From Antedon mediterranea (Eukaryota > Echinodermata > Crinoidea > Comatulida > Antedonidae), in NCBI RefSeq assembly GCF_964355755.1, contig NC_092680.1:18949001-19013000 (forward strand): DNA of 64,000 nucleotides, read 5' to 3'. Below the pieces are notes generated by a model. That model was not told the DNA's origin. It saw only the letters and a program-made list of their open reading frames with translations, and made no database searches. Of this stretch, positions 3,537 to 63,654 are shown one piece after another; the first letter of the stretch is position 1; each line of letters starts with the position of its first letter. A program made the translations under genes and the position numbers.

Positions 3537-3890
3537 ATACGAAGAGAGGTTGAAGGCTTTGGACCTACCTACGTTAGTATTTAGAAAGAAAAGGGCTGAT
3601 GTATTACAAACATTTAAAATAATAAGTATGAGAAAATAAATGATGAGAAGCTCTTTGCAAAATCTAATTATAAACAAACTAGAGGACACAGTTTCAAAGT
3701 CTCTAAACCCAAGATAAAATTAAACGTTAGAAAGAGTGCATATTCGGTAAGAGTGGTAGATGATTGCAACTCATTACCCAGTCATGTAGTAGAGGCACAA
3801 TCGGTCAATGAGTTCAAATCGGGCATTGCTAAATATTGGTCTGACCACCACATCAAGTTTCGCCCGTACGTTAATGAAGAGTTATGACGA
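3537..3890 (+). pseudogene. LINE reverse transcriptase C-terminal relic
   Basis: Read on the plus strand with frame breaks, this segment gives YEERLKALDLPTLVFRKKR, later GHSFKVSKPKIK and then DDCNSLPSHVVEAQSVNEFK. That is the familiar C-terminal end of CR1/jockey-type LINE reverse transcriptases (the RL..L.L..L..RR block, then the W/C-N-S-LP and FK blocks). A stop codon and a frameshift near 3637-3650 show it is dead. Only about 115 codons remain, as expected for a 5'-truncated insertion. The exact clade cannot be told by eye. Confidence 0.6.
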
Positions 3891-15405: not shown

Positions 15406-16944
15406 TTAATAGTGTTGATACTGTCTATAACTTTCGTGTTGGTTTGCCAACCCACCTATGTACCCGATTAAAATACGCAACAGCAGTATAAATAATAGTA
15501 TAAACAATACAAATCTAACAATTCTCAGCTGCATGAAAGCATGCCAACTTATTTTACTTTCGACTACACCCTTTTGATGTACGTCATACTCTTGTTGGAT
15601 TTTGTGAATGACTTTACACAAATCGAGGTGTTTTTTCAAATCCAAATCATCATCAGTTGGACCTTCACCCTCAACGTCAATCAGATAGTTTTCTACAAAT
15701 AGTGCCAATGACGCACCTTTTAAATAAAAAATAAATATGACCCGGTTTAATAGGCTCAATGATAAACAGGTTGTTTAATATAAAATCTGTTTAAAAAATT
15801 TTAAGTCTCATCATTATTATAATAATTGAGGTAGATGCTATTGAGGATACTCACCGAAACCAGTGAGTATTGAGTGCATTTCTATCTCTTGCCCTTGTGG
15901 TATCTCTTGTTTTGACGTCACGACAATGATAGGGCTACATCCTGAATTAAGGTATTATGACAAAGAAAAATATTTTATTAACATAAGGCATAGGTTTTAT
16001 AACTAAAACAATATTATCTGGAGATGATAGAATGGTAGACAATATTTTACCTGATGCAGCCTTTATATAGCCTACTACTCTCTCCAAAACTGTGTAATCT
16101 GGGTCTTTTGAATTGTGAAAATGTAAAATTTGATCATGATCAGTTATGCTTACTTTTCTCAAATCATTTTTTGTTTTGCTGAAAATTTATATTGTTATTA
16201 ATCATGTATCAATATATAATTAGGCCTACCTAACAAGAAGTACAGGAAAGTCCATTGGTTTAACAGGCACTTCGAAGAAGTTAAACCATTTTTTTCTCGG
16301 CTTCCAAGATACATCAGTAACATAATTGCGGTATCCATCTAAATACAAAATGTATCTTTAATATGTCTTTATAAAAACCAAAATTAATAATGTGTTTATA
16401 AAAGAAAAAGCAGTAAAGAAGAGTAGTCGAAAATCTCAATAGCCTTTAATCCAACATGTTGAAAAATATGATATTAATGTTAGCCCTTTAAGAATCGGAC
16501 CAAAGACATGATGATATTATTTTTAGTATTTCTACTTTTCGAAAATTCTAACTTACTACAAATACGGTAGATTTCATCATAGGCATCCCCTGCTCCAGCA
16601 GGATATCCTCTTGTATCAACAAACTCCAAATTTCCAATTTTAACTATTCTAAGTTGATTTGTATTTCCACCTCCATGGTGTCCTCCCTTGCGAGAAGAAG
16701 GCACCTCTTGAACAAACTCATCAGGTAACTCTTTACTTTGAAATTTTGAAACCCAAAGTAAGCTATTCAGAAATGAACTTTTACCACATCCGGACTGTCC
16801 AAAAACAACAATTCTGGGGGGCACAGAAGAAGAGTGGATTTCACCTGGAACAGTGGGTCTCCACATCCTGATGTCAACTGCCATATTCTTTAATTTTGGC
16901 TCAAGTGAAAGTTGCGATACAGTGACTTTCTGAAATCTGTCCAT
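15406..16944 (-). CDS. P-loop GTPase with C-terminal transmembrane anchor
   Basis: Five exons (16557-16944, 16230-16338, 16051-16178, 15855-15941, 15406-15716) join in phase with GT-AG introns to give 340 aa. An in-frame TAG sits six bases before the ATG, so the start is firm. Visible motifs: a P-loop GQSGCGKSS (residues 49-57), T95 in a Gly/His-rich loop as candidate switch I, DTRG (110-113) as the G3 motif, and VVTSKQE (215-221) where the base-recognition motif would sit, though it is not canonical NKxD. A hydrophobic helix of about 20 residues (about 303-323) ends the protein, followed by a short polar tail. This is a tail-anchored layout, seen in immune-type GTPases such as GIMAP proteins, but I cannot assign a family. 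Role and partner are unknown. The flanks are duplicated on both sides. Confidence 0.8.
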
Positions 16945-38900: not shown

Positions 38901-39441
38901 AAGACAATTGATGCATTGAACATTCAACTCATCCAGTCAAGATGTAGACCCCACAACAAGACAACTGATGTATTCAACATTCAACTCATCCAGTCAAGAT
39001 GTACACCCCAGAAAAAGACAATGGGTGTATTCAACATTAAACTCATCCAGTCAAGATGTATATCCCATAACAAGACAAGTGATGTATTCAACTCATCTAG
39101 TAAAGATGTACACCCCACAACAAGACAACTGATGTATTCAACATTCAACTCATCCAGTCAAGATGTACACCCCACAAAAAGACAATGGGTGTATTCAACA
39201 TTAAACTCTTCCAGTAAAGATGTACATCCCATAACAAGACAAGTGATGTATTCAACTCATCTAGTAAAGATGTACACCCCACAACAAGACAACTGATGTA
39301 TTCAACATTCAACTCATCCAGTCAAGATGTACACCCCACAAAAAGACAATTGATGCATTCAACATTAAACTCTTCCAGTAAAGATGTTCACCCCATAACA
39401 AGACCAGTGATGTATTCAACATTCAAATCATCCAGTAGACA
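26996..39441 (+). repeat. Giant 57-bp minisatellite, about 218 copies
   Basis: A 12.4-kb head-to-tail array whose unit reads roughly CAAGATGTACACCCCATAAC, AAGACAATTGATGTATTC, AACATTCAACTCATCCAGT (57 bp). Units differ at a few sites: AGATGTACAC/ACATTTACAT, TTGATG/CTGATG/GTGATG, TATTC/CATTC. The variants occur in the same order in blocks. 27214-29990 is repeated at about 29990-32700 with an offset of 2784 bp falling to about 2600, and 35052-36580 is repeated at 36583-38110 with an offset of 1531 bp. As 57 is divisible by three, two forward frames stay open over long runs (up to 645 codons). Stops recur where CAGTCAAG becomes CAGTTAAG, and small deletions shift frame, so I treat it as non-coding satellite. 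Confidence 0.95.
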
Positions 39442-40094: not shown

Positions 40095-40450
40095 TATGTA
40101 TTTTAAAAATAAAATATACTAATAATGTTAATGATTTACATGTTTCTTTCCCTTATTAGCATAATATTGATTGTTTTTTATGTATTTTATTAATTAATAT
40201 GCTAATGATTTACAGGTTTCTTTCCTCTATTAGCATAATATTGATTGTTTTTCTATGTATTTTATTAATTATTATGCTAATGATTTAAATGTTTCTTTCC
40301 CTTATTAGCATAATATTGATTGTTTGTCTATGTATTTTATTAATTAAAATGCTAATGATTTACAGGTATCTTTCTCCTAGCATTAATGTTGATTGTTTTA
40401 TTAATTATTAATATTTTCTTTCATTAGCATAATATTTGATTGTTTTTCAT
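40095..40450 (+). repeat. Minisatellite of about 75 bp, four to five copies
   Basis: Units share TTAGCATAATATTGATTG and GCTAATGATTTACAGG. The pieces ATTAGCATAAT and ATGCTAAT are partly inverse to each other. The last unit runs directly into the first unit of the 66-bp array. Confidence 0.8.
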
Positions 40451-43055
40451 TATATCTTGGTATTAAATCAGGTTATTTTTTGGTAAATGCATTTCATATA
40501 ATGTGTAAGGTAACATTATATCTTGGTATTAAATCAGGTTATTTTTTGGCAAATGCATTTCATATAATGTGTAAGGTAACATTATATCTTGGTATTAAAT
40601 CAGGTTATTTTTTGGTAAATGCATTTTATATAATGTGTAAGGTAACATTATATCTTGGTATTAAATCAGGTTATTTTTTGGTAAATGCATTTTATATAAT
40701 GTGTAAGGTAACATTATATCTTGGTATTAAATCAGGTTATTTTTTGGTAAATGCATTTTATATAATGTGTAAGGTAACATTATATCTTGGTACTAAATCA
40801 GGTTATTTTTGGTAAATGCATTTCATATAATGTGTAAGGTAACATTATATCTTGGTATTAAATCCGGTTATTTTTTGGTAAATACATTTCATATAATGTG
40901 TAAGGTAACATTATATCTTGGCATAAAAGGTTATTTTTTGGTAAATGCATTTTATATAATGTGTAAGGTAACATTATATATTGGTATTAAATCCGGTTAT
41001 TTTTTGATAAATGCATTTTATATAATGTGTAAGGTAACATTATATCTTGGTATTAAATCAGGTTATTTTTTGGTAAATGCATTTCATATAATGTGTAAGG
41101 TAACATTATATCTTGGTATTAAATCAGGTTATTTTTTGGTAAATGTATTTAATATAATGTGTAAGGTAACATTATATCTTGGTATTAAATCCGGTTATTT
41201 TTTGGTAAATGCATTTTATATAATGTGTAAGGTAACATTATATATTGGTATTAAATCAGGTTATTTTTTGATAAATGAATTTTATATAATGTGTAAGTTA
41301 ACATTATATCTTGGTATTAAATCAGGTTATTTTTTGGTAAATGCATTTCATATAATGTGTAAGGTAACATTATATCTTGGTATTAAATCAGGTTATTTTT
41401 TGGTAAATGCATTTCATATAATGTGTAAGGTAACATTATATCTTGGTACTAAATCAGGTTATTTTTTGGTAAATGCATTTCATATAATGTGTAAGGTAAC
41501 ATTATATCTTGGTACTAAATCAGGTTATTTTTTGAAAAATGCATTTTATATAATGTGTAAGGTAACATTATATATTGGTATTAAATCAGGGTATTTTTTG
41601 GTAAATGTATTTCATATAATGTGTAAGGTAACATTATATATATCTTGGTACTAAATCAGGTTATTTTTGGTAAATGCATTTCATATAATGTGTAAGGTAA
41701 CATTATATCTTGGTATTAAATTAGGTTATTTTTTGATAAATGCATTTCATATAATGTGTAAGGTAACATTATATCTTGGTATTAAATCAGGTTATTTTTG
41801 GTAAATGCATTTCATATAATGTGTAAGGTAACATTATATCTTGGTACTAAATCAGGTTATTTTTGGTAAATGCATTTCATATAATGTGTAAGGTAACATT
41901 ATATATTGGTATTAAATCAGGTTATTTTTTGGTAAATGCATTTGATATACTGTGTAAGCTAACATTATATCTTGGTACTAAATCAGGTTATTTTTTGGTA
42001 AATGCATTTCATATAATGTGTAAGGTAACATTATATCTTGGTATTAAATCAGGTTATTTTTTGGTAAATGCATTTCATATAATGTGTAAGGTAACATTAT
42101 ATCTTAATACTAAATCAGGTTATTTTTGGTAAATGCATTTCATATAATGTGTAAGGTAACATTATATATTGGTATTAAATCAGGTTATTTTTTGGTAAAT
42201 TCATTTAATATAATGTGTAAGGTAACATTATATCTTGGTATTAAATCAGGTTATTTTTGGTAAATGCATTTCATATGTGTAAGGTAACATTATATATTGG
42301 TATTAAATTAGGTTATTTTTGGTAAATGCATTTTATATAATGTGTAAGGTAACATTATATTGGTACTAAATCAGGTTATTTTTGGTAAATGCATTTTATA
42401 TAATGTGTAAGGTAACATTATATCTTGGTACTAAATCAGGTTATTTTTGGTAAATGCATTTTATATAATGTGTAAGGTAACATTATATATTGGTATTAAA
42501 TCAGGTTATTTTTTTTGGTAAATGCATTTAATATAATGTGTAAGGTAACATTATATCTTGGTATTAAATCAGGTTATTTTTGGTAAATGCATTTTATATA
42601 ATGTGTAAGGTAACATTATATCTTGGTACTAAATCAGGTTATTTTTGGTAAATGCATTTGATATAATGTGTAAGGTAACATTATATCTTGGTATTAAATC
42701 AGGTTATTTTTGGTAAATGCATTTTATATAATGTGTAAGGTAACATTATATCTTGGTATTGAATCAGGTTATTTTTGGTAAATGCATTTCATATAATGTG
42801 TAAGGTAACATTATATCTTGGTATTAAATCAGGTTATTTTTGGTAAATGCATTTCATATAATGTGTAAGGTAACATTATATCTTGGTATTAAATCCGGTT
42901 ATTTTTTGGTAAATACATTTCATATAATGTGTAAGGTAACATTATATCTTGGCATAAAAGGTTATTTTTTGGTAAATGCATTTTATATAATGTGTAAGGT
43001 AACATTATTATCTTGGTATCAAAGGTTAATTTTTTGGTAAATGCATTGTAAGGTA
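40450..43055 (+). repeat. Minisatellite of about 66 bp, about 39 copies
   Basis: Each unit contains GGTAAATGCATTTCATATAA, TGTGTAAGGTAACATTATAT and CTTGGTATTAAATCAGG. A T-run of five or six bases makes most of the length change. In-phase stretches read as a 22-aa repeat (NAFHIMCKVTLYLGIKS and so on), up to 281 codons, but one-base T-run changes break frame over the right half. The block 40809-40990 recurs nearly unchanged at 42840-43010, with the same rare variants (AAATACATTT, GGCATAAAAGG), so a larger segment was also duplicated. Confidence 0.93.
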
Positions 43056-43801: not shown

Positions 43802-46800
43802 ATGTCTGACGAAAGGTGAGTAATTTGTTTTTATTGTCATTTTTTTAACAAAATCGTACTTTTAAAAATATTTATTGGAATATTCTGGGTAACAATGTGT
43901 GTTTATTTTTCAGTGAAGGTAAAGATGGTGGTAGCTGGTGGGGTGGTTGGCTACAAACTGCTAAAGAACAGGTACGTATTTTGTTGATCCTTTTCTAGGC
44001 CTAGGCTAGGCTAGGCCTATATTTTTATAGGCTAGCCTATACTTGGCTAATTAATAGCCTGCTGGCAGGATCTAGGCTAGGCCTAACTAGAAGACCTCTA
44101 GGCTAGTAGGGCTAGGCTAGTAGGGCTAGCCTAGTACTTGGCTAGGCCTAGGCCCATACACACACGATGAAAGTAGAGTCAGTTAGGACAATTGACTACA
44201 TTATTATGCAGTTGTCAATTGTATGGAGAGGAAGTCATTTACAAATAATTACGGTCTGATGCAGGGGTGCGTAAAAAAACCTAGATGGTACATCACATCA
44301 ATAAACAATGGTGTGTCAATGTCCATCAATTTACCACCCACCATAAACAACATAGTCATAATGCGTCAAAATGGGTGCATCATTGTCACCTATTTAAGGC
44401 AAGTCACATTTATAATGTGTGATGCACATCAGACAAATGACGCACCTCTCCCGGGGGTCATGTAGTGTGTCATACAATTGACAAGTGCATTATTAAATAA
44501 ATTGAATTTAATATATTTTTTTAAAAGGCAATTAAGCTAGGTCTATATAATGTAAAATAAAATAATCCAATAATATTATACAATAAATAATTTATATATA
44601 TAAATTATAATAGAGACCTAAACTGTTTTTTTTTCTTTATATATTAATTTAGTCATCATCAGCATGGGACATGATGAAAAAAGATCTTGTTGAATTTGGC
44701 GTAACTGTTAAACGAGATACTCAAGCAACCGTAGCTAGCGGAGCTGCTAACATCAAAGACCAGATTAAGGTAAAACAATACATGTTTCTTGTTTAAGCGG
44801 TTAAGACAGTGGAACCGTAATTACGTAGCCATAACATCGGCAAGGGTTCGAGGCTCACTCGCTCCATGGTTCTGGTGGTAGAACGAGTCTTCTCGGATAA
44901 GGACTATAAACCGTAGGTCCAGTGTACACATAGCTCATGCGCACTTTAAAGAACCTAGTACATCTTTCGAGACGAGTAGGGGGTTACCCCGGTGTACTAA
45001 TCCACACAGACACTGTCACACACAGCCACTGTGCAAATTACTCACTCGCACCATATCCCACCAAAAGTGCTATAGTCTTCAAGTCTGAAGTTTGCACTAA
45101 ATTGGAAGAAGAAGTTAATAATATGTTTTACCATCCAAGTCATTTGATGATAATCTTAATAATCTCATCTATTTTTCTAAAATTAGACGGATGACGCATC
45201 TTCAAGCGGAAGTAGAGTGACAGAGGGATTTTCCCGGTTGTTATCAGGAATATCAGAAACTCTATCCCCAAGGGATTATGGGCTTGAAGAGGATGACAAA
45301 CAAAGTGTTCTAATAACAAAAGATGGCGCTCACATATTTGATAGAAAAAAGGTAAATTTGATAGGGCAAGTGTTGGTAGGGCACATGTTTATACACCACA
45401 TTATTATTCTTTTTAGACACATTGCCAAGGACTGTTAATTTGGTTTCACTGTCCTGATATTAGTGACAATCCAATAATACACACAAGATGCTCTACATAA
45501 ACAAAGTTGGAATGGAGTTGTGTTGTCATGAGAAAAACAACTGGGAGGAGTTGAACGCAGGGTCGCCTAGCATCCTAACCAACAAACTACAGCTCACATC
45601 ATGGCGAATGTGTGGAAAACATTACCCAGTTATATTTCATTGTAAAATATTTGTTTTGCTTTTCAGGCTAAGTTACATGCAATTCAGACAGAGCCTGGAA
45701 CTTACTGCAATGAGCCTGATGGTCCACTGGATCATTATGAGAAGTGGTGCCAAGCCTTTAGCCTAGAAGATAACAAAGGAGAAATATCAGAATTACTTGT
45801 AGTCAACACCAACGTACGATCCTTATACACCAAAATGGTAAGTTTTAATATGAGCCTATTTTTCAAATTTACAAACATTACTAATTAACTTAGTTTTTGT
45901 AAGGTATTACTGTTTCTGGTTTATTATTCTTGTATTATTTGTCTTATTATTGAAACATAATTTAAGATAAATTTAAAATGTGAAAATAGAATTTAATCTT
46001 TCACCTCATAAAATTATGTGTACCATCGCACTTATAATAAACATTCATAATTTGTATAATATATTTCATTTCTTCCATAGAAATTTTAGTAAATTTATGA
46101 AATATAATATTTTTAAGGTACCTGCAGTTGTGTCTCATGATGATTTCTGGAACCGTTACTTCTATAAAATTTATCAACTCGACCAAGATGAGGCAAGGAA
46201 GGCGGCGCTAATGGAAAGGGCTGACATGACATCATCAACGAAAGAAGATGATGATCTTGGATGGGGTGACGAAGAAGGCGAGTTTTGTTGCAAAATTCAG
46301 TGGCGTAACGGTTATGAATGCTCACTGTCTAAACCCAGGGACCCTGGAGCTTATGAGGCCCCTGAGCAGTGCCTAAAGGGAAAAAGAGGACTTAAAATAT
46401 GCCAGAGGCATCCAGCGTTGGAGAGCCACTTAGGGTTCCTAAACCAGAGGCCTGATATCTCTACATTACGCCATTGGGTAAATTTTGGCAATAAAAAATA
46501 CATAATTCCTTTTTAATTCATTGTGTTTCATATGATTTTTAGATGATTCATGGGATACAGTGCCCGATGCAAAAACTTGCAAGGAACAAACGGACAAACA
46601 GAGAGATGATGATAATGCTGAAACATCGGTAACATCTTCAGGAGCAACAAAACCTGAAGAACCAGTTGTGATCGCATTTATGGAAAGATTAACAGTTGAA
46701 GATGATGAACAAAAGGGAGATGAAAATGAGCCAGAACAGCCATCTGGACGATTGACACCAGAGGAATATATATTAAGTACTGAATGCGATGGTAAATTGT

Positions 46801-47479
46801 GTATATCAAATGAAGAGAGTATTGTAGGCAATGAAAAAACATTGGATTGTACCGCAAACAATGAACCACATAGAGAAATAAAACAAACAATAGACAATAA
46901 ACTGGACAATGAACTGGAAAGTAACGATGTAGAAATTGACAATGGAAAAACCTCACCTGTATCTTCAGATCCAAAAGGTTTGTAATATGGCATTATGGTT
47001 ATTAAATATTCACGTTATTAAATCTGAAGGCTCCGTGCAAATAATTCAACAATCATGAATCGCCACTCAACTATACAGATATCGAGTACTTTTTTACACA
47101 GGCAAACAAAATTAACCAAGGTTTTAAGGCGTTAAAACTAAACCACGTTTAATGAACTGTTGGATGTATCTATACTGTATATCCTTTACACATAGAAACA
47201 CCTGTTTAAAGGGACAACACTTTATTGGCCCTTAATAGGTGTATCCATGTACTAACATATAATATATCCGTTTTTAAAACATGTACGCTAGAAAGTTTAG
47301 AACTATTAAAGTGGAAAGTCATTTTATTTAAAGTCTAATGATCTCTTTCCTCAGATTCAAGTAGCCTGGGTGACGATTGGGATGATTTTGATGACATAGA
47401 AGTTACGGAGGAGGATGTAAAAGCTGCCGCAAGCATGACAGCAGATGATGATTTAGATGACTGGGAAAACTGGGAATAA
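43802..47479 (+). CDS. BSDC1: BSDC1, BSD domain-containing protein 1
   Basis: Eight exons (43802-43815, 43914-43971, 44653-44769, 45187-45351, 45667-45837, 46118-46277, 46543-46977, 47355-47479) join in phase to give 414 aa; the human protein has about 430. The N-terminus (MSDE...GGSWWGGWL), TYCNEPDGP (130-138), KGEISELLV and the BSD core SHDDFWNRYFYKIYQL (181-196, with the Phe-Trp pair at 185-186) match vertebrate BSDC1. The acidic end closes with DDWENWE, as in the human protein (WEDWE). BSD domains occur in basal transcription and synapse-associated proteins; the role of BSDC1 is poorly known. Exon 7 codes for a long acidic, low-complexity linker. Intron 6 is odd: its best donor is GC (AAG|GCGAGT at 46278), with a weaker GT choice at 46266 that keeps phase and drops four residues. 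Neighbouring PRIM2 is convergent. Confidence 0.94.
43996..44156. repeat. CTAGGCCTAG-rich cluster in BSDC1 intron 2
   Basis: Around a dozen CTAGGC/GCCTAG words, several palindromic, lie directly after the exon 2 donor. Composition and position near the 5' end of a gene resemble the STPG1 cluster at 13020-13880. Confidence 0.7.
44209..44487. mobile_element. MITE family B, copy 1 (BSDC1 intron 2)
   Basis: The ends AGTTGTCAATTGTATG and CATACAATTGACAAGTG are inverted repeats, and inner arms carry CTCTCCCGGGGGTCAT. The inside has repeated TGCGTCA/TGACGCA words. A reverse-oriented copy lies at 57815-58127. Confidence 0.8.
44792..45065 (+). mobile_element. tRNA-derived SINE in BSDC1 intron 3
   Basis: The A-box-like TTAAGCGGTTAAGACAGTGG and a B box GGTTCGAGGC form the head. 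The body includes GTCTTCTCGGATAAGGACTA and CTTTAAAGAACCTAGTACAT, typical of a long-lived SINE body. It is a different family from 20911-21186. Confidence 0.75.
45545..45597 (-). mobile_element. tRNA-like SINE head, reverse (BSDC1 intron 4)
   Basis: The minus strand reads GAGCTGTAGTTTGTTGGTTA, then GGATGCTAGGCG and GTTCAACTCC, i.e. A-box- and B-box-like parts of a tRNA. It is related to the heads at 12200 and 56725. Confidence 0.5.
46298..46475. mobile_element. MITE in BSDC1 intron 6, beside the unusual donor
   Basis: CAGTGGCGTAACG at the left and CATTACGCCATTG at the right are inverse with two mismatches. The inside is GC-richer than the intron (CCCAGGGACCCTGGAGC). The element begins 20 bp after the GC donor at 46278. 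Reading from exon 6 stays open through it to 46516, which is a by-product rather than a likely exon. Confidence 0.6.
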
Positions 47480-48980: not shown

Positions 48981-48986
48981 TTTATT
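48981..48986 (-). promoter_or_regulatory. Polyadenylation signal for PRIM2
   Basis: AATAAA on the minus strand, about 225 nt past the PRIM2 stop codon. Confidence 0.4.
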
Positions 48987-49208: not shown

Positions 49209-52200
49209 TTACACAGCTCCTGCTTCCATCTTATCTAAATCGTCCATTGAGATACCAGTCTCATCATTAAAGTCATCACCATCTCCGATAGGCTGGTTGT
49301 CTTTTGAGGCTTGAACTGGATTACTGATCTGTGACGATGGTGAACGATATGCTAAAGAAAATAGAATAAATTATGTGTAAATAATGAAGGAACATGGGTT
49401 AAAATTAGCAAGCACTAGGATTCATTTCATGAATGGTTAGGTGTGGCAGGTTCAAGATCACACCTTACCACACAATGATTTCTGAGGTCTGAAGATTTTT
49501 AATTGTTCAGAAATTAAGAATGGGGAGAAGCCACATTAATTCATCATTAATATTCTTAAGTCTACATTTTGAGTTATTAACTGTATTTCATCAACACTTT
49601 TTGTTTGTGTACCATTTTTTTTCTTATAATGTAGTGATGCATATTTTATGTTTTTGTATTCATAAGCCAAGTTCTATGATAAAACAAATAAAAATCCTTA
49701 ATACGAATTATTGATAAGGATGAATGTCATGGGCCAACTGAAGGACTCTTGACACAAATACAGTACACTCAATAATTTACAAATTAACTAAATAAAATAA
49801 ATTAATTGAAATCATAATTAAACAAATAATAGTAATAATAAATAAAATAAATAAATATAACACCATAAATGAGTAGTGTAGCTACAATGAAAAGAAACAT
49901 AATAATGAATATTCATTCATGGCCTCCAAAAACAATTTCAATCTATTCAAAATCACTGAAGCATGGAATGTTCAAAAAGCATACAGATTATATTGTGTTA
50001 TGAATCACCACCAACCGTTAAATACCAAGTGGCTAGTAAGTGGGCCTACGCACTGTACCAGGCTAAACAACTTGAACTGAAAAGAGCATGTACACAAGGA
50101 TCTAACACAATATTTGGATTTATAGGTTTTTAGGTAAGTTAAAGTATTAATATTAGGCAGTAACAAAGTACTATGAAATCTAATCATGAGAATTTTACAG
50201 TTATTATTATGTCATTCTGAGTGACATGTATGTAGGAAGGGAGTACAGTAACTGAGTAAGTACCACATTTGTTAGCCTGACCAGACCCATACTAAGTATT
50301 CTATATGCTGTCAGTCTACGAATGATCTGCAGTATTGGCATAATTTAAGGTAAAATTAAGCACATTATGTATCAACATGTTAAAGTAAAGGACTGTCATG
50401 TCATAAATAAAGGAAATCAATTCAACATATTTGTCCATTGTAAAGGAAGTATTTATACAAAACAAGTAACAATATAACTGATGACCAACCGAGTGGGTTC
50501 CCCTCCATTTCCATACAAAATATGGCAGAAAGTATAGGGTGGGATAACACCATAGAGTACTACTGTATACTTAAGTCATATAGTATATACAGTGCACATA
50601 AAATGATAAGCTTTACTAATGTACAAACAGACCTTGTTGTAGTATGATAAAGAAATGCAGTGGGACACCCCTAATCAGGGGACAACACCCCTATTAAGGG
50701 AGTTTCCCATGAAATGAACAAGGGGAAATATAATATGTTTGAACACTACACATTCAACAACCCCTATTTAAATAGATCATCCTTATTAAGGTACACCCCC
50801 CGGGTCCTGAAGGTGTTCCCTTAATAGGGGTGGTTCTACTATTAGTATTAGGTAAATAAAAAACTAATTTTTTTATGGTAAACACATCAAAGTACCAGTA
50901 TGTATTTGAGAACAACAATAGACCCTTTAAGAAAGATGCTTGCTGATTACACCCAACTCTTAAAGCCTAAATTATGGTGATTATTATTCAATCAGTTATT
51001 GTATTAATCAATAAATGATTTTGAGTTTAGGAAAGTTTGTAGAAAATAATAATAATAATATTAATGGTTTCCTTATAATACATAATTAATAAGGAAAAAT
51101 AAATTTTTCATAATAAATTAATTTAAGAAATATCATTCTTGATGTGGTATTGGCAGGTAAAATAAAAATGTCGGTTAATTTTACAATGGTATTTATACCA
51201 AATACAGTAATTTAGTAGTTAGTAGAATTAAGAACCTATAGATCATAGGAAATCGAAAGACAATTTATGATGAAATAAAGTCACTGTTCCCCTTGGTTAC
51301 CTTATCATTGACCTAGGTCACAGAAGGAAGTGCATGACTTCCTGTTTCCTTGAGAGGGGAAAATCTAAAAATCAGTTGTGAATGTGATTTATAAATCAAT
51401 AACATGATTGTTAGATATTATTTCACAAGACAGTTGTAGAATATAAGAACTATAATGTCACATTCTCAACCTTACTGATTTCCTTCTTAGAAACACATGG
51501 TGTATCGCTAACCTTACTACCGGTAATTATTTTAGCCTACTACTTACTTTGTCAGTAGAAACTACAGTAGCAGCCTACCTGTATGAAGTAAATGTCAGAG
51601 TTTACAGTATTCATCTGTTTCACTTTCAGCTCTCTATAATTAGCATAAATATAAAGTACATCCTACATACTAATAACATGAAGGCATTACTTTAATAAAT
51701 TATTTTTAAACATCTTACTGTATTTCCTTTGACAAGACACAATGAAGAATTACATTAAAAAACAAAAATAAAGACTTGGTTTTTACGAAATAAGCTTGTA
51801 GAGAGGTATCAACCGTTTGAAAACTCCATGCCTTTTTAAAGCGTTTATGCTTTTTATCGTATTTTAACTTTTTACTTCCAAAAATCTACTGTACTTATTA
51901 AATTTAAGTTTTTGTGTAATATTGTGTGTGTATTCTATTTTGTTATGTTTGTTTATATTTTATATACGTATATATCTGTTTTTAATTGTACTAATACTTG
52001 CCAATCTTTAAAAAGAATTTCTATTATTATTTAATATGATAATGAACAAATAAAGCTATTCGGTATTCAGGCCGGCTATAGATAAAAGTAAATAAAATAA
52101 ATTCAAAAACAATATTATTTGGATAATGAATTACCAAGTGTACAATCACTAAACTCATCAACTGCACATGGGAGTCATCCACATACAGTATTATGTGAAT

Positions 52201-55200
52201 TTTACAGTAGATTATAATTTACTTTTTTATATTTTTAGATATCTGGAAAGATGGCAGATGACATACTTCATATCCTGGAATGTCCGATGTGTCTTGAAAT
52301 ATTTGACTCAACCCGACATCGACCAAAACTTCTACCATGCCAACACACATTCTGTGTGCCATGCTTGGACATGATAATGAAGAACAACGCCATTGAATGT
52401 CCAAACTGTCGTGTACAGGTCCCTCTTCCTGTAGCTGGAAAAGGTGTTGAGGGGTTTCCTAACAACTTGACTATGTTTGCTCTGATTGATTTGCAAGGAA
52501 AGAGTGAACAGAGCAGTAATGTGCAACAAGTGCCCGAATCACCATTAACGGCACAACAGTCTGTGAATCTTCAGACAAGACAGACTATTTCTGCGTTGAT
52601 CAGTCAGTTGAAAGGAAAAGTAAACACATTAAGCCAAACAAATGTTCAAGAGAACAAACTAGAACAAAGTTATCAGTACGCAAAAGGGCAGATTGATTCT
52701 TCACTTGAAAAAGTTGTAAATGAGGTACGAGCGCGGAAGAACATTCTTGTATCACAGTTAGAAGCGCAAAGACAGGATGGTAAGCGCCACCTTCAGGTAC
52801 AAAGACAACAAGCACAGGAATTACTGAAGAGTTTCCAGAATGAGATTCAAGCGGTCATGTCTGCCAATCAGCAGCCTTCAAAGGAAGACTTGGACAATAT
52901 TGTTGCAAAATGCAAGAATTATCTACAGCAGTTACACAATCTGGAGATGAGGGGTCAAGGGTCATGGTCATGGAGTTACATCGAGGATTCAAAAGAGCAA
53001 CTTGATCAGGAAATTGCAAACTTTGGACAAATTTACAGCAACAGGAGTGCAACAGTAACATCAAATCAGTCACAGACTAACACAGATGGCAGATTGTCTG
53101 GTCAAACAATGCACATACAAACAGAACAGTTGGCTAATCACCTTCAGACTAGTTTAAACACTGAGCAATCAATATCACCTCTGTCTGCAGGAAATCCTTT
53201 TAACAGCCCTACAATTGTTGGAATACCTCGCAGGGATTCTGGCAATTCTTTAAGCAGTATTGGTGCTAGTCAATCCTTTGACTCTGGTATTGATTCTAGA
53301 AGGCGATCGGAATCTTTCTCAAGTGAACACTTGCAGAGTTCTCCATCATTTAATCAAAGTAATCTTCAGGTTTCAAGACAGATGCCACAGATAAAACCTA
53401 ATCCTCAAACACAAGCAACTAATCCATTTTCACGACGCACATCAGCTGGTCCAGTTTTGAATCCACCACCTCCAGTTACAAACAGAAGAAGTTCTAGTCC
53501 ATTACAAAGGCATCAGTCAACTGGAGCAGTTAGTGTTGTTGCAAAAAGTTTGCCAGCTCAGCAAACTTTTGTCAGAAACAATCCTCAAAATGTACAACTT
53601 TCACAGGTTAGCTCTACAACAAATGCATCTGCAATTTCGCCATCAGCTGCTCCTAATTACCGACTGAGAGGCAATCCTTGCAAAGTGTTAGGTGAGGGTC
53701 CTTCAAGAGGTATCAAATTTTCAAAACCGGTTGCTTTACTTTCCCTTCCAAACACAAATCTTGCTGTTCTTGACGAGAATTATAATTCCATTGCCATTTT
53801 GACTGCAGAAGGACAAATATTAAAATCTTATGGCACAATGGGAAATAAACCTGGCCAGTTTTCGGCACCAAAGTCATTCTTCTTAAATAAACGGAATCAA
53901 TTTGTAGTTTCAGACTCTGGGAATAATCGGGTGCAAATATGGGATACAGGACGTGATTTTGTTAATGAATTTGGTTGTGCTGGACATCCATCAATACAAC
54001 TTAGCAGCCCCATTGGTATTGTAAGTGACCGTCTTGAGAATATTTACATTTGCGATGCTAATAATCAATGTGTAAAGGTATATAAATCAGATGGAACTTT
54101 CTTACGCCAGATTGGTCAAGGTGGAGACAGTGATGGTCAGTTTAAAAAACCATCTCACATTGCATTCACTCCTGGTAACCAGTTAATGGTAACAGACTCT
54201 CTCAAACATTTAGTGCAGGTATTTACGCCGGATGGTAAATTTCTCTATAAATTTGGCGGTTGGGGTACTGAACCTGGAAAGTTGAACAGTCCTACAGGCA
54301 TTGCGGTGGATCCGCAAGGATATGTGATTGTTGCAGACACCGGTAACCATCGTATACAAATATTCTATGCATCAGGAACAATGGAGACTTGCTTTGGTAC
54401 TCATGGTAGCGAGGAGGGTCAATTTGATGAACCCACTGGTATCGGGTTTGTACACAATGGAAGATTTGCAGTATGTGATACAGGAAATAAAAGAATTCAG
54501 ATTATTTAGAATTATATGCATAAAAATCAGAAATAAGTCAACACTTAAAATATTGAAAGTGACTGCTACTGTACAAAAACTGATAACCATTATGCACCAA
54601 AAACCCTGAAGGCATTTTATGAACCAACAACTGGTATCGGTAACGGGTCCCAATATTTCCGCATGTACAATGAACTGACAGTTTAAAATCGAGAGGTCCC
54701 CATTTACCAACCTTGGCCACTAAATATATCTTTCCCATTGAATGGAATGACAATACCATGTGTTACAAAATCGACCAATGGAATTGCAAAGATATACTTT
54801 TAAGTATGTATTTAAAGTGTGTTATAATATTATTTTATGACAAATGTGTTTATAATTTGTTTTGACACATGAGGAGAATATCAATTTCTTGCCATGTTTA
54901 CTTTCATTTTCTTTGAATTTCATGTTAATGTGTTTATATCAGTTCAGGATGGTTTTAGCAACTAGATGTACCAAAGTCATAATAGTTTAAAAAAAACACT
55001 ACTATTGAATATACAGTAAACTGTTATTATTATAATATAAAATGTTTGGTATGTCAAACAATTTATTTTTGTTGTAAATGAGTGCTTATTTTTTTAGAAA
55101 TAAAAAACATCAGTTAATAGCAACTATATAATACAGTAATAAGCAATAACAAGAGGTTGAGCTATTTTTATTCATTTATATATTTCTGTTGTGTTATTAC

Positions 55201-58200
55201 TTGATTTTATTTCTTATAGAATAGTATGGACATATGTGTGAATGAAAGTTACTCTTGCGCAATTTTTATTTGTTTGGACTCAATGTCAACAATTTTAATT
55301 TTCATTTGTTTGGACTTCATCTCAACAATTTTCATTATAGTAGTGAGACACAAAACTGTGAACTCATATTATTGTCACAAATAAAAATCCGCTCCAGTTT
55401 TATTAGATATGCTTGACCTTTTGGCAAAATCAATTCACGCTATTATACTGTAAATAACAATGGATTGGATGGGCTAGAGAAATGGCTAAGTAGCTACCAG
55501 AGTATAATGAACATTATTTGTGGTATATTTTGTGATAGCATGTTTCTATTTCAATTTAAATGTCATTGTGTGGCTGGTAGTAGGGTAGTACTAGTATTAG
55601 TACCAGAATGTTTTACAAATTGAATGCAAGAATAATTAATTTTTGGTACATGGACACATCAAACTGGTCACAATGGTCTCATGGCAAATGTAATTTGAAT
55701 TGTGTGTGTCAACTGGTAACATGTCTATTAAATAGGAAAACATAAAAACAAATAACAAATTCCTAAGTTAAATATGTGCTGTACCTTTCAATCAACAATC
55801 AGTATCTATGTAATGTATTATATTTATGATGGAAAAAGATTAGCTGGTATAAAGTTTATTCTGAAGACCATTTCAGCAATTGTAATCGCTCAACAATGGT
55901 AGCATTGCCCTCCCCCACTCCCCTCCCCTCCCCAAGAAGCATCTTGTAGCATACTCTGGATTGGGTGTCCTTAAACATCTTAAGCTCTGCCTACACTATC
56001 AAACATTATGTGACAAAAAAATGTGATATGGACTTGATGATGTCATATCACTACCATATTTAAGCATATCACTACCATATTTAGGCATTTTTTGTCATCA
56101 AACTAGTTTGATAGAGTATACATACCTTAATAATAAGTAAATAACATGTTTTTATCCTAAAAGGGCACCAGCCAGCTTTATTCAATATTGGATGACGGGA
56201 CATACATTACATTGTAAACACTTTTCATCTATTCTGTTGCTATAGATATAAAGCATAACAAAATTCTACTCATATTAAAATGATAATTATTTATTTATTT
56301 ATTTAATTTATTTTCGGTATATAAAATATATTACAAATGCCTAAAAATTTGTTCAAATTGCTATAAAAATAGAAACATCTTATTAAAATTAGATATCGTA
56401 CCATAAAATTAAAAACATAGATGAATAAAAAACCTTAAAACATTCACTTAATACATATCTAAAAAAGAGCTAGTGGTGCCTATTTTAATGAGAACTACAC
56501 TGCTGATGAATATCGAGTATTACGTAAATATGTCACAAAAATAAAACCATGTCATTGTCTACCAATGTGTAAAGAGTTTAACTACTAACATAACACAATT
56601 TAAGGAAGAAGAACTGTTAGTTTTTTTTCATACGCATGCAACAGCAAGCACACGCCAATTACAGGATGGTTAAACTATTTTATAATTTATCGTGCTTATA
56701 AACTAAGTCTCATTTGAGCCTGTAGGGAGTGGAGTTGAAGGCAAGCATGTTAACCACCAATTACAGCTCCACTATACTACTATTGATTGAAAAATGAGTA
56801 CCGTATATGGAATAAAAAGTGAATGAAAATTAGAGTGAGTTTATTAGACACTATAGTGTTAGTACACACTGTAAACTCTATAAACATATACTAAGTTAAA
56901 GAGAAAAATAAATAGGTCTTCATTTTCTTTCTATTAAGTATTATATTTAAATCTATTTTTGTAAAATGGGTTGCTATCATATTTCTAAGTTTTGTTTTGC
57001 TTTCATTTCAATTGACAATCTATGTTTCGCCTGTTGTCGTTATCACATGCAATATATCAAATAATATTACTTATTTATTAGTGAAGATCTTTTTCACTTT
57101 ATATTGAATAAAATAGGATATGCTTAGATTTGCCTAGAGTTGTCAGTAATTGTTTGATAGAATACAGTAAACCTTCAGTCCTATACCCCCTTAGTGTATA
57201 AAAAAATGTGAAATATTTATAAAGTGGAAGAATTAACAATGTGCTTGCAGTTTGTACACAGAGAAATTAGATATTAATTCTTATATCAGACTGTATGAAA
57301 CAAGCAAAGAAAACAGGATTTGGTTTTAAACTTTAATTTGTTTTTTTTTTCATTTTGTAAAAACAAATATCAGTAGGAAACACACAGGGTAAAAATCTCT
57401 ATGTAAAACGAGATCTTAAATTGTTCCTCTCGTAGATCATTTAGCTAAAGGCTGCAGTAATGATTTGTTAGGCCTAGATATGTACTAAAATGAATGGAAA
57501 ATGCACAGAAACCAACATACTATTATTTATTAGATTAGAAAAGATGAAATCATTTTATGTGTATGTAAAATTCAGGGAACGTAAAATCAGGGTACATCCA
57601 ATGTAGGTCCTACTTATGGCAAATCCAACTATTATGTCAGATTGTTTTTTTTTCTTACCTCCGTTTGTTGGTTTTACTCCTGTTAAAACTTTTCTACTTT
57701 CTTCAAAATAATGATTTGGATGCTGGATAGATGTTGTTCCTTCAGGTAGCTATGTATAAAAACAATACAACAAAGACTACATTATTGCATACATTATATT
57801 CCAATATCCTAATGCACTTGTCAATTGTATGACCCACTATACAACCCCCGGGAGAGGTGCGTCATTTGTCCGATGTGCGTCATACATTATTAATACCATG
57901 ACACACTCGTGCATCAAAAATGTGACTTACCTTTAGGTGAACATGATGCACCCATTTTGACGGACTGTGACCATGTTGTTTATGATATGTTTAGTGGTAA
58001 AGTGACAGACATTGACACACAATCGTTCATTGATGTGACGTACCTTCTAGGTTTTTTGACGCACCCCTGCGTCAGTAATTATTTGTAGATGACACACCTC
58101 TCCCGGGGGTCATATAATTGACAAGTACCTAACTATATAGTTTTTCTATTTCTAATATACTATTGGTACAAAAGCATTAAGTTATAATCTACTATAAGGG

Positions 58201-61200
58201 CGAGAGTATGTATGGTTGTTCATTTAGCACATTTTTGCTATTGCAGTGCATCCATACACATGGGGTATCAATCATATATTATGTACCTTTATGAAATTAT
58301 CAAGTGCTGAGTATAGGAAATTCCTGTATGGGAAATTCCAGTGTTATTATAGACAAGAAACAGATATACAATCAATAACTCTAACCTGATGGGTGACGTC
58401 AAAATATCTGGAGCATGCCAGCTGGCAATGGCCACCATTCATATACGTCATGATCTGGAATAAACATAGAAATCAATGCACTTATTCATATATAAGGGAG
58501 GAGCGGTCAGTGCGAGTGTAGGAATGAGGTGTTGAAACAGAAATTAAGCATTGAATAAGGAAAAATATTGTTTCATTCCCAATCATTACATTGTATGTAT
58601 TCTTTAATTCATAATATTTTTGATTTGAAAAGCTACCATGATCATAGCGCCTCTATGTTATGACTATTTAAGAGAAAAAATAGAGTTGCTTCAACACCAA
58701 TGCCACATTGATTTACAATCATTCAGGAAATCATCTTAAAGCAGCTACTGTATAAGAAATTGATGACTAAAAAAACTAAAATGGTTAAAGGTTTCCTCCA
58801 TTAAGAAATGGTTCCAGAACTTCAAATGCTTTATTAGTAGGAAACGATGCCAATGTAGGCTAAATAATCTTTTTCTCAAAGATGGCAAATATAAACACTT
58901 CTCTGGGTCCAATTGTTGCACTCTACTGTACATCCATAATAAATAATGTTATATTGTGTAATGCTAGGTACAGTAGCCACACTCTGTGGTTAACCTGGTC
59001 ATGAAATACGTAAATGAACATAAAGAATAAAGAAAGATTGTTATTCTAAATACTTACAGAATCAATACTGGTTTGTGAGACACCATAAGATGACATTTGC
59101 TGTTTCAGGATTGTGGCATCAGAATGTCGAAAAGGACAGCCTAAACAAATTTAAATATCTAATGGGTTACGATGGAGTTAGTTTTATAAATTTCAGTTGT
59201 TTGTTGGATATACAGTGTTTACCATGGGCTGTGAAAAGCATAATTCATAAATATATAAGTGTAAAGTATCGACCAATCGGTTAAGAAATTTGAATAGCAA
59301 AAGATTACAAACATTCACCTATGGTAGATTATATCCACTTTAATTAAAAAAATACATACATTACAGAAAGTATAAGCAATCTGGTATAGTGTACAAAAAA
59401 AAACTACTAAGTAATGTGAAGTAAGTTGCCTTTCTTACCATGATGGTCACCAGCTCCAGGAGCATTTGACGTAATAATCTTCATACAACTGTACGGTGTG
59501 TAGTCAACACGCTTACCCTCTTTGCCATAGTTGTGCCGAATGTTGTATGCATATTGTTTGTCAAACTAAATAAAAAGAAAAACTTAGTTTATAAGTATCG
59601 CTGTGAAACATTTAGAAATGATAAAGAACATGAACAGGAATGTAGAATGCACTTATCTACATCCAACAACATAAGTTAGCAGGCAATTATGGTAAATTTA
59701 TTGTTTCAGTGTTGTAATGAATGTATTTTTAACAACAATCTCTGATCATTCAGGGATTTTGTGTTTCCACCAAGCATTGTAAGAAGGGTGGTAGGAAAGT
59801 AAACTAATGGCTATAATAGTATAATAGTGGTGAATTTTAACTATTGTTATATATTTTTTATTTGTAATGTTTTTATGTCGCTTGTATTGTTTGCCCCTCA
59901 AAATCAGCTTCCGCTGGCTGGGTCACCCTCTTGAAATATTGTTGAATAAATAAAAAACAACCTATTACAACCTTGGTGACAGCTAGGGTGGAACTGGTAG
60001 GTTCTCCCAAAACAAATTGTCAATTTAGATAATTTTTTATTATTAAAATTACTGATTGCTGGGTCTGTAAATAATTTTTTTTTTACTGCGGACCTGTATC
60101 TAATCTAATGGGGTTAAGTATATTCTGATAAGAGCCTCATCAAAGAAAAAGCTGTTTTTTTTAAATCACATACCTTATCTACATCCATCGTCTTACTAAA
60201 TTCTGATCTCCAAAATATGAGTGCTTGTTCCAGAGTGATTCCAATAGCTTTGAGAAAGAGACCATACTGCATACGTCCCCAGTATTTAAGATGATGGTCA
60301 TGTTTGAGGGCAGAATGTAGGTGCCTCATGCAAAGAGGGAACGACTTGCGTGACAGCTGGAAATCAGAAAAGAAATTTAAGCAAAATTAGTTTGGGAAAT
60401 AAGTACTTTATCAATCATGGTATAACAAAGGTTAAGTTAAAAATTCATTTTTAACACGTTCACTGCCACGGCGTATTTATACGTCAAAAATTGCGTGTCG
60501 CTACTTGCCAAGACGTAATACTACGTCAAAATCGTAGCACTTTTGTATTGTATGTAGAATCGCTGGCAGTGGTGATTGGAACAGGAATTATCGCATGGCA
60601 GTTTATGAATGATGTACGTAAACGATAATCTAAAAATAAATGTCATATGTTTGTTTGTGTTTATTCCCTCATGCATTGAATATGGTTGATACGATGGCGC
60701 CCTCACACTCAATATAATCATCTCAAACATGTCATAAATTGCGCTAATAGTAAATAAAAATAATAAAGGATGAAATGATTCAGTGTGGTTTACTGTTTTT
60801 ATCTCTCGATGATAGGGTGGGTCAGAGGATGGGGGTCAGATATTGACCCCATCATGATAGTCTGTGACCAGATGTTACACTTTCAAACTGTAATTTAATA
60901 TGTAAACGGGACTTGGCACTGGGACAGAAATTACGGAAAATGCCTTGGCAGTCAATGTGTTAAAACAACAAACTACTAAAAAACGTCTATTGTGAAATTA
61001 TCTCAGGGATGTAGTAGATAGTCTAGTCTACGGGGCATCAAGAATTGACGGGTGATTTTAAATCCAAACAATAGACTTTTAGACAAATAATTATTGAGTT
61101 TTTCATTGATATGCATCGAGATTTTGAAATAGAAAAACATTTTAACAAAATAATACCGTTTCAAACTTGTTTACAATTTGGAACTTTGTTCCTCTCGTAG

Positions 61201-63654
61201 CCACAAAGCTGGAACGTGGGGAACTTAGAACACCTACATTACATTAGCCTAAACAACTTACACCATCTAGCTCTCCTATTGAAACCTTGCCAGCATTTGT
61301 CTGCTTTCCTCCATAATCCTGTCCAAGATACTGCTTGCTCAGGTTGTTAAGCAGAGGAAGGAGTCGGTTGTCTTCCTCAAGCTGCGGTACTGCACGTGCC
61401 GTCAGAGCTAGTGCGTGGGACAGGTGAGCACGGTATGCACTAATTACGATTGATACAAGGTCATTACTGGGTACATATGCATATCCCTGTAGAAAAAAAA
61501 ACAAAACTCGTAAATTGATTGCTAATGTTATCAGACAGCGTATAATTCATTTTGCAACATTTATTCCAGTTGAAGTTTTTCTTAATTGTCATAATAAAAA
61601 GTTTTAAAAAACTTTATAAATCAACTAGAATATACTTCATTTCAACCAAGTATGATGCATTTAAATTCTATATAATAATTACCTTGTGAACATATATTTT
61701 TCTACTTCTCACCAGATCAAGGGCTTCAGTAAAAGGAACCTTTAAAGACAGAACAAGCAATATAATTAAATAATAATAAAACAAAATGAAACTGAACTAA
61801 AAATGATTAACAAAAGCTTTAAAGTTATATATACAATAATGGCAGTGATAAATTTAAAATTATCTATAATTCATTTTATTATTAGTCAACTCTTTTGTAT
61901 TGGGTGAGCCTATTTCACCCTGGCAACCTTTTGTACGGGACAATCCAAATTGTACTTGTGGCTTTAATGTTGAGAATCCGCTTCATTTCTTATGTTACTG
62001 CCCTAATTATAATACACAAAGAGATATTCTACTTGTAAGCGCTAACTCAATTATTGAGGATATCTTAGCCAAGGATTTTTCTTTAACATTTAATTTTACA
62101 TTTTTAAGTGAAATTTTTATTTTTGGTTCCGATCTTCTTTCGAATTGTGAAAAAAATGCTTTATTATTTTATTATGTACAACAATTTCCTGTTAATTCTG
62201 GAAGATTTAATTGATGTTTCTGTTAGTTGTTTTAAAATGTTGTATTTGTTAATCTGAGGCGCCTTGAAGCTAAGGTGGTTCCATCTTGTAAGGCGCCTCT
62301 GTGTAATATACTGAATAAAAAAAAAAACAAAAAAAAAAAAAACCTTGTACGATACAGTAATGCAAACTATTGGACAAAAATTAGTAAATCAATTCATTAA
62401 CAAACATGTATATGAGTGACATATAACTATGATTGATCCATATTCAATAATCTTTGATGACCTTACAATAATATTGTCTGGCCTATGAGTAAACATTCAT
62501 CATCTCAACATAAAATAAAAGAAACCTAATAATAATAACTCACTAATAACACCTGTTGTTAATTAGGACAATGGCTAGAAACTGACCAATTAATATTTAA
62601 TGTAATAAAAACAAATTATAAAGACCTTATAGAATTCAATTCCTTCAATGCTCATCTCTGTCAAGTTGTAACTTGAGTCAACCAACTGTTTCTTAAGTGC
62701 TTCCTTCTCTTTCGCGTCAATCTTAAAAAAAAATAAAATATTATTCAAGGACAGAATCTTAAGTGTAATAATACTGTTTAATAATAGAATAATGAATAAT
62801 ATAATATTTTGTGGCGAGTGGCTTTTTCAATATTTTTATGGATTGTTTGAATCTGGGAGTTTGTTTTATTTTACACTGATGAAAATGTGAAAATGGCAAA
62901 CACTCTGAAAAGCTTGGTGTTAAAAACGTTTCACCTGAGCAATGTACTTTAGTCCACTCTACCAATACTGTACACTAGGTCTGGTGTTCCTTAAATCCTA
63001 TTTTCCAAATGTACTTTAGTGATATAAAATAATTTGGGACCTCAAGGACAGTCTGATATTCGGAGTGGTTCCAGTTTTCAGAGAGTCCAGTTGGGAGAGT
63101 CCAATGAACAGTAAATAATAGTAAGTTTACATCCACAATTTTCATGCATTTAAAGAATTATATTAAAAAAAAAGAATAATTTAGTGAACTACTTGTTTGC
63201 TAACCAAACAAAATAAACTAGTATAATATAAATTTAGCATTTTCTATTAGAAATATAAGACAACATTTCGGAGGGCACAATAGAATTTATTGAGAAAGAA
63301 ATTGACTCCTTAGAGGCAAAACTAAAATAGGCTTTCTACTTACAGGTTCATAGTGAAGATCATTGTCAATTAAAAACTGTGTTCTAAAAGATGTCCTTTC
63401 ATCAAGAAATCGAAAACGAAACAACTCAAGTTCCTGAGTTATGAACCATCGACGCAACTCTTCTCTACAAAAAAAACCCATTTTAAATAAGTTTTGCCAT
63501 TCTGCATATTTGGAATCTTTATAAACCATAATAAAACAATAGGTTATAGATTCATATAGCCTTACGATTTGCAATATGCTAATCGGAGAATAAAATGAGA
63601 AATGTGGTCTGATCTTCTTTTCTGAATCTCAGCAGTTGCAGCTCCTCCCATGGA
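49209..63654 (-). CDS. PRIM2: PRIM2, DNA primase large subunit (5' exons missing)
   Basis: Eleven exons (63566-63654, 63344-63464, 62626-62721, 61683-61739, 61262-61486, 60174-60356, 59439-59565, 59058-59140, 58386-58454, 57659-57749, 49209-49351) join in phase and give the last 427 aa. The large subunit pairs with PRIM1 in the polymerase alpha-primase complex that makes RNA primers in the nucleus. [41 protein letters not shown] and [12 protein letters not shown] match vertebrate PRIM2. All four iron-sulfur cysteines are present: in [23 protein letters not shown] and QLACSRYF, with spacings of 17 and 40 residues between the last three, as in human C367, C384 and C424. The first roughly 90 residues lie beyond the right edge. 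The last exon (acidic tail MDDLDKME) is less certain: it fits by phase and acidity only, and lies across an 8.3-kb intron that contains another gene. Confidence 0.93.
49352..52237. other. PRIM2 last intron, right of its final exon
   Basis: It must contain the promoter and probably a 5' non-coding exon of the nested NHL gene, because an acceptor (TTTTTATATTTTTAG) ends at 52238. I cannot place that exon. Apart from the inverted repeat at 50659-50833, no repeat or exon is recognisable. Confidence 0.4.
50659..50833. mobile_element. Inverted-repeat element, CCCCTATTAAGGG type
   Basis: The left part has GGGACACCCCTAATCAGGGG and CACCCCTATTAAGGGAG, and the right part GTTCCCTTAATAGGGGTGG. The arms face each other, and more CCCCTATTT and TTATTAAGGTACACC words lie inside. 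A related word occurs at 48036. Probably a degraded MITE; ends approximate. Confidence 0.5.
52251..54509 (+). CDS. RING-NHL E3 ubiquitin ligase, TRIM32/NHL-1-like
   Basis: A single open frame of 752 aa. A C3HC4 RING at residues 11-53 (C11, C14, C30, H32, C35, C38, C50, C53; CPMCLEIF and [12 protein letters not shown]) resembles TRIM32. No B-box follows; instead come a Gln/Lys-rich coiled coil (about 110-265) and a Ser/Gln/Asn-rich disordered linker (about 270-470). The C-terminus has six NHL repeats (about 480-752), each with a D..N.R.Q-type strand, e.g. [13 protein letters not shown] and [12 protein letters not shown], forming a six-bladed propeller. Such proteins ubiquitinate targets and bind RNA or protein through the propeller; the substrate here is unknown. 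The CDS lacks introns, but a splice acceptor lies 13 bp before the ATG, so the 5' UTR is probably spliced. It sits wholly inside a PRIM2 intron on the opposite strand. TRIM32 is about 650 aa; the orthology is not settled. Confidence 0.93.
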   Translation: MADDILHILECPMCLEIFDSTRHRPKLLPCQHTFCVPCLDMIMKNNAIECPNCRVQVPLPVAGKGVEGFPNNLTMFALIDLQGKSEQSSNVQQVPESPLTAQQSVNLQTRQTISALISQLKGKVNTLSQTNVQENKLEQSYQYAKGQIDSSLEKVVNEVRARKNILVSQLEAQRQDGKRHLQVQRQQAQELLKSFQNEIQAVMSANQQPSKEDLDNIVAKCKNYLQQLHNLEMRGQGSWSWSYIEDSKEQLDQEIANFGQIYSNRSATVTSNQSQTNTDGRLSGQTMHIQTEQLANHLQTSLNTEQSISPLSAGNPFNSPTIVGIPRRDSGNSLSSIGASQSFDSGIDSRRRSESFSSEHLQSSPSFNQSNLQVSRQMPQIKPNPQTQATNPFSRRTSAGPVLNPPPPVTNRRSSSPLQRHQSTGAVSVVAKSLPAQQTFVRNNPQNVQLSQVSSTTNASAISPSAAPNYRLRGNPCKVLGEGPSRGIKFSKPVALLSLPNTNLAVLDENYNSIAILTAEGQILKSYGTMGNKPGQFSAPKSFFLNKRNQFVVSDSGNNRVQIWDTGRDFVNEFGCAGHPSIQLSSPIGIVSDRLENIYICDANNQCVKVYKSDGTFLRQIGQGGDSDGQFKKPSHIAFTPGNQLMVTDSLKHLVQVFTPDGKFLYKFGGWGTEPGKLNSPTGIAVDPQGYVIVADTGNHRIQIFYASGTMETCFGTHGSEEGQFDEPTGIGFVHNGRFAVCDTGNKRIQII
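55980..56129. mobile_element. MITE family A, diverged copy
   Basis: It starts TAAGCTCTGCCTACACTATC and keeps ATATCACTACCATATTTA twice and CAAACTAGTTTGATAGAGTA near the right end. The right inverted end is eroded, so this is an older copy than those in STPG1. Confidence 0.65.
56725..56772 (-). mobile_element. tRNA-like SINE head, reverse
   Basis: The minus strand reads GTGGAGCTGTAATTGGTGG, TTAACATGCTTG and CTTCAACTCC, related to the heads at 12200 and 45545. Confidence 0.5.
57815..58127. mobile_element. MITE family B, copy 2 (PRIM2 intron)
   Basis: The ends CACTTGTCAATTGTATGACC and ATAATTGACAAGT are inverted, with CCCCCGGGAGAGGTGCGTCA facing ACACACCTCTCCCGGGGG. It lies in reverse orientation to 44209-44487. 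It contains repeated TGACGCA/TGCGTCA words. Confidence 0.8.
59780..59965 (+). mobile_element. LINE 3'-end-like fragment
   Basis: TTTTATGTCGCTTGTATTG, CAGCTTCCGCTGGCTGGGT and CACCCTCTTGAAATATTG, then a TGAATAAATAAAAAACAA tail, look like the 3' UTR and A-rich tail of a non-LTR element on the plus strand. No coding part remains. It lies in a PRIM2 intron. Confidence 0.4.
60455..60959. mobile_element. piggyBac-type non-autonomous element
   Basis: TTAA sits at both borders (60451-60454 and 60960-60963). The ends CACGTTCACTGCCACGG and CCTTGGCAGTCAATGTG are inverted repeats with few mismatches. The 505-bp inside has no transposase frame. TTAA targeting and the short CAC-type ends are typical of piggyBac relatives. 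It lies in a PRIM2 intron. Confidence 0.75.
61880..62342 (+). pseudogene. 5'-truncated LINE, reverse transcriptase C-terminus
   Basis: About 100 codons stay open, including the Cys/His motif [20 protein letters not shown] (C-x-C, then H and C) found at the C-terminus of many LINE polymerases, and end at a stop at 62212. A short 3' UTR with AAGGCGCCT words and a poly-A-like tail (62318-62342) follows. The intact short frame and tail suggest a fairly young insertion, in a PRIM2 intron and opposite to the gene. Confidence 0.7.

Follow-up and report, generated by a model that had tools for sequence, protein, structure and literature searches.

The 64,000-nucleotide stretch of Antedon mediterranea DNA analyzed here, referred to below as the window, raises the question of whether an open reading frame for a RING-NHL protein truly lies within an intron of PRIM2, and, if so, what it encodes and how it came to be there. 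A preliminary description had placed a CDS of 752 aa, devoid of coding introns, at 52251-54509, inside the last PRIM2 intron and on the opposite strand. Both statements are borne out on the DNA: the frame runs intact from ATG to TAG with no internal stops, and a complete PRIM2 model appears to surround it. We consider it highly probable that the locus holds a functional, one-coding-exon RING-NHL gene of the E3 type, probably with a spliced 5' UTR, which lies antisense in the enlarged last intron of a normal PRIM2 and belongs to an old TRIM-like lineage without a B-box, close to Thin, TRIM32 and NHL-1 and common in this genome.

We reconstructed the minus-strand PRIM2 gene one exon at a time: five exons came from Pfam matches, and the others were located in the sequence, with GT-AG sites used for the joins. 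The resulting model comprises 13 coding exons with one stop and encodes 518 aa, with all introns of the GT-AG type and phases compatible throughout. Its product matches vertebrate PRIM2 with E values of about 1e-160 to 1e-156 (best 1.1e-160), over an alignment that begins at residue 10 or 17 and ends at residue 477-489, and its FPLC, YSC, GCPF and LAC motifs, whose four cysteines we take to be the Fe-S cysteines, align with those of the vertebrate protein. A second, divergent PRIM2-like gene is present at about 2049-4681 (+) of locus L018 (G000:C2:26950001-26957000), in which PF04104 is distributed over three open stretches and followed by a long unrelated C-terminal tail; the stretches, roughly joined, match vertebrate PRIM2 at 1.9e-32, and the four Fe-S cysteine positions are apparently retained, as judged by eye.

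The nested CDS is situated wholly between exons 12 and 13 of PRIM2, on the other strand, and the proposed boundaries of the intron, 57659 and 49351, prove to be the exact ends of these exons (see the table). This intron measures 8307 b, compared with 101-905 b for the other eleven, and a scan for coding signal revealed no convincing further coding exon in it besides the nested CDS. Judged on sequence, the single-coding-exon gene antisense in the PRIM2 intron is real, correctly located and ordinary.

Table. Features of the PRIM2 locus and of the gene nested in it (window coordinates)
Feature	Position	Strand	Basis or remark
PRIM2 coding exon 1	64504-64342	-	outside the 64,000-nt window (L017)
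PRIM2 coding exon 2	64203-64094	-	outside the 64,000-nt window (L017)
PRIM2 coding exons 3-5	63654-63566, 63464-63344, 62721-62626	-	
PRIM2 coding exons 6-8	61739-61683, 61486-61262, 60356-60174	-	
PRIM2 coding exons 9-11	59565-59439, 59140-59058, 58454-58386	-	
PRIM2 coding exons 3-11, whole span	58386..63654	-	Pfam and splice-joined model
PRIM2 coding exon 12	57659..57749	-	ends in phase 1, donor 57659
PRIM2 intron 12	49352..57658	-	8307 b; contains the nested CDS
PRIM2 coding exon 13 (terminal, carries the stop)	49209..49351	-	supported by phase, splice sites and coding signal
AATAAA, probable PRIM2 poly(A) signal	48981..48986	-	222 nt past the stop
RING-NHL CDS, 752 aa, single coding exon	52251..54509	+	ORF; codon signal over the whole ORF
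RING finger, aa 10-54, C3HC4 pattern	52278..52412	+	Pfam zf-RING_2 9.9e-8
NHL six-bladed propeller, aa 491-752	53721..54506	+	Pfam NHL 7.6e-31
Acceptor-like site, probable 5'-UTR intron	52224..52238	+	score 10.2-10.6
Dispersed repeat upstream of the nested CDS	51832..52070	+	at least 39 further copies, 73-86% identity
High-copy dispersed repeat, 164 b	56321..56484	.	about 95% identical to many copies

The nested protein carries a RING finger at its N-terminus, for which the top match among PDB sequences is human TRIM32 (5fey, 1.9e-11), and the C-terminal NHL propeller that characterizes the NHL-repeat proteins (TRIM-NHL, subfamily C). A single-sequence model of the propeller (aa 491-752) reached a mean pLDDT of 84.1 and a pTM of 0.84, and a fold search with this model returned Drosophila Thin (6xg7) as the best hit (Z 37.3, rmsd 1.8 over 262 residues), with TRIM2, TRIM3 and TRIM71 close behind; the NHL domain of Thin is also the best match of the protein by sequence among solved structures. 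Of the domains that define a TRIM (RBCC) protein, the RING is present, whereas no B-box was found by Pfam at E up to 1; the same library does detect one in the TRIM71-like locus L025. Because the B-box is absent, the predicted protein is TRIM-like, a RING-NHL protein but not a canonical TRIM. The name "NHL ubiquitin ligase" given in the preliminary description remains reasonable as far as RING and NHL are concerned, and does not extend to membership among canonical TRIMs. The gene probably encodes a ubiquitin ligase, in which the RING would recruit an E2 and the NHL propeller would bind RNA or protein partners.

The term "intronless", also used previously, holds for the CDS but probably not for the gene, since a strong acceptor-like site, whose end lies 12 nt upstream of the ATG, points to an intron in the 5' UTR. 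It was scored with a matrix built from only 12 PRIM2 acceptors, and PRIM2's own acceptors range from 7.8 to 14.5 on this scale. Related loci were scored in the same manner. A first run recorded, for each locus, the top-scoring site within 90 nt upstream of the ATG; at several loci this site lay 40-75 nt away or nothing notable was present, and random 90-nt stretches often contain a fair acceptor site. A second run was confined to 55 nt and to the 22 loci in which the start of the RING could be read, the nested gene scoring 10.6: a score of at least 5 was attained at 12 of the 22 loci, the frequency in random stretches being 11.7% (binomial P 1.4e-6), and a score of at least 6 at 11 of the 22 versus 8.0% (P 2.7e-7), where the P values are descriptive, the 55-nt reach having been chosen after the results of the first run, and where independence is overstated, related loci (paralogues) having been counted as independent. 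The sites of the 12 positive loci lie 0, 0, 0, 0, 0, 2, 6, 10, 12, 25, 30 and 33 nt from the ATG, i.e., nine within 12 nt and three farther out, up to 33 nt, and the threshold was not reached at the other 10 of the 22 loci. We infer that genes of this family are probably built of a 5'-UTR intron and one coding exon, a pattern that appears in about half of the tested loci. The 5' end of the nested gene itself may or may not fall within the PRIM2 intron; with a 5' exon to the left of 49209, the gene would extend over the 3' end of PRIM2 and so would not be wholly nested.

The family to which the gene belongs is large. At least 77 genome matches to the nested protein were scored, and at least 144 to the NHL domain of Thin; these counts are lower bounds, yet neighbouring matches can be parts of one gene. 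Most of the NHL-encoding matches lie in long open frames, many of them of 500-830 codons, and among the 33 NHL loci that were fetched and examined, RING and NHL usually share one frame where the start is readable. This arrangement, with no B-box by Pfam, is seen at L022, L024, L026, L027 and L028. The expansion includes clusters of NHL genes on C2 (37.2 Mb), C3 (6.6 and 31.9 Mb) and C4 (5.8-5.95 Mb), and further clusters on C7 (24-27 Mb) and C9 (5.4 Mb). The nearest relatives of the nested protein are only about 25-46% identical to it, and a tree of NHL domains placed it with those five loci and with L019, L021 and L049 at only 83/92, in a poorly resolved group. Thin itself finds its top match in this genome not in the nested gene (36%, 193 bits) but at C10:22202166 (L019; 43%, 208 bits), so that the nested gene is not the reciprocal best match of Thin. 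With Thin as its best match in the PDB, the nested protein appears nearest to the branch of Thin, TRIM32 and NHL-1, which have been grouped together (PMC9070667); Drosophila Thin/Abba and C. elegans NHL-1 represent this branch, and Thin leads for the nested NHL domain, among solved structures, by both sequence and fold. As Thin itself prefers the C10 locus, the nested gene is at most a candidate for its one-to-one orthologue.

Two origins had been suggested for the lack of coding introns, namely retroposition and an old intronless TRIM-NHL lineage. An old lineage with a single coding exon is favoured over retroposition of this copy because the relatives are so diverged and acceptor-like sites recur before the ATG in about half of the sampled loci, and because they lie mostly in long open frames, with RING and NHL in one frame at the sampled loci. 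Most likely, the nested gene would have come to, or stayed in, a permissive intron by ordinary gene duplication or transposition; it would be transcribed probably from its own promoter, and PRIM2 would splice it out with the intron. An acceptor before the ATG that is shared within the family fits duplication at the DNA level, and the lineage as a whole may go back to an ancient retroposition.

It is unlikely, by comparison, that this copy is a retrogene, derived by reverse transcription from the mRNA of a Thin/TRIM32-like parent with introns and integrated into the PRIM2 intron. A CDS without introns that lies in an intron on the opposite strand would suit such an event, and nested genes with a single coding exon presumably derive from retrotransposition (PMC3933685); moreover, L019 on C10 may have coding introns, its NHL domain lying in a frame of 421 aa and a tblastn search of the upstream sequence (L019 and L056), seeded with RING domains, having given no convincing hit. 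However, a fresh copy should have a close parent, and the genome matches include no highly similar intron-bearing one, the best relative being about 40% identical over the NHL domain. Several relatives in the same loose group likewise have a single coding exon, and the acceptor-like site recurs in the family. The 3' flank lacks a long A-tract by eye, but at such an age the tract would be gone. The old single-coding-exon lineage is therefore the reading retained here.

Several repeats are present in the window. The one upstream of the nested CDS ends about 180 b before the ATG and has several copies clustered at C1:40.29-40.35 Mb; by coordinates, none of its listed copies falls at a fetched TRIM-NHL locus. 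Copies of the 164-b repeat are spread across large contigs. The dispersed repeats of intron 12 were considered as a clue to the origin of the nested gene, and no link was found. To the left of the locus, the window contains a tandem array at 171-2699 (130-bp unit, about 19 copies), a fragment of a P-loop GTPase at 16480-16944 (-) with weak AIG1/IIGP-type matches, a 12.4-kb minisatellite at 27009-39436 (57-bp unit, about 219 copies), in which several frames stay open, 57 being divisible by three, and a tandem repeat at 40448-43047 (66-bp unit, about 40 copies, 94% matches).

It had also been suggested that collision of the two transcripts makes the expression of PRIM2 and of the RING-NHL gene mutually exclusive, as in proliferation versus differentiation. 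The genes lie on opposite strands, the nested CDS is overlapped entirely by the host intron, and interference by intronic nested genes has been documented in human (PMC3192792). Against this, the published surveys of nested genes cited in that paper, so far as its account of them goes, find neither a positive nor a negative correlation between host and nested gene in general. Mutual exclusion finds no support here beyond the geometry, and we regard it as very improbable.

The nesting itself depends on exon 13, whose product, an acidic tail of low complexity, is not clearly matched in PRIM2 structures; homology alone is thus no proof of it, and the exon was tested separately for this reason. 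Its codon log-odds in frame is 0.449 log2 units per codon, versus -0.09 to 0.04 in the other five frames; the 12 other PRIM2 exons, which, like the family CDSs but unlike exon 13, had been used in training, score from -0.01 to 0.29, so that exon 13 ranks highest, and it also exceeds the maximum of 0.23 among 342 non-coding stop-free stretches. AG acceptors with a pyrimidine tract that open a phase-1 reading frame of at least 40 residues occur at seven sites, three of them antisense to the nested CDS and three in a BSDC1-like region; the seventh, that of exon 13, alone lies in intronic sequence beyond the nested CDS. The BSDC1-like gene at 43912-47470 (+) has a BSD domain (1.9e-7) at 46016-46516 and is convergent with PRIM2, its coding signal stopping near 47470. 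It is the nearest gene to the left, and no minus-strand gene that could compete for exon 13 was found. Exon 13 is thus well supported, by its sequence features, as the last coding exon of PRIM2. That PRIM2 instead ends before the nested gene, with 49209-49351 belonging to another gene and no nesting at all, is scarcely credible: the unmatched acidic tail would allow it, but the fitting phase 1, the strong acceptor, unique of its kind, the top coding score in PRIM2, the stop with its poly(A) signal and the plus-strand orientation of the left-hand neighbour all oppose it.

TRIM32 has a single coding exon. In humans, it lies within an intron of ASTN2 on the opposite strand (PMC8282839), while the frog is without the nested gene of this pair (PMC3933685). 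As at the present locus, a RING-NHL E3 gene is thus found antisense in a host intron, and TRIM32 in ASTN2 is a direct precedent for the PRIM2 pair, from which it differs in its host and in that TRIM32 carries a B-box (PMC2533329). A layout of RING and NHL without a B-box is shared with NHLRC1 (malin) (PMC3503706); compared by domain layout alone, the nested protein differs from malin in the long middle region between the two domains. The LRRTM genes, whose coding sequence occupies one exon or nearly so, are likewise nested antisense in the alpha-catenin introns (PMC3933685), although that protein family is unrelated to RING-NHL. Antisense nested single-exon genes are common, and a literature search for a gene nested in PRIM2 returned no paper. 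We attach next to no likelihood to the idea that the PRIM2/RING-NHL nesting is ancient and conserved and that antisense transcription there links a cell-cycle gene with an NHL ligase that promotes differentiation.

The nested pair leaves the understanding of PRIM2 and of the RING-NHL gene unchanged. It adds one clear example to the known antisense nested gene pairs, with a TRIM32-like RING-NHL gene now located antisense in the intron of an unrelated host. For annotators, it means that a solitary gene with one coding exon, found inside a host intron, is not necessarily a recent retrocopy if the whole family is built in this way.
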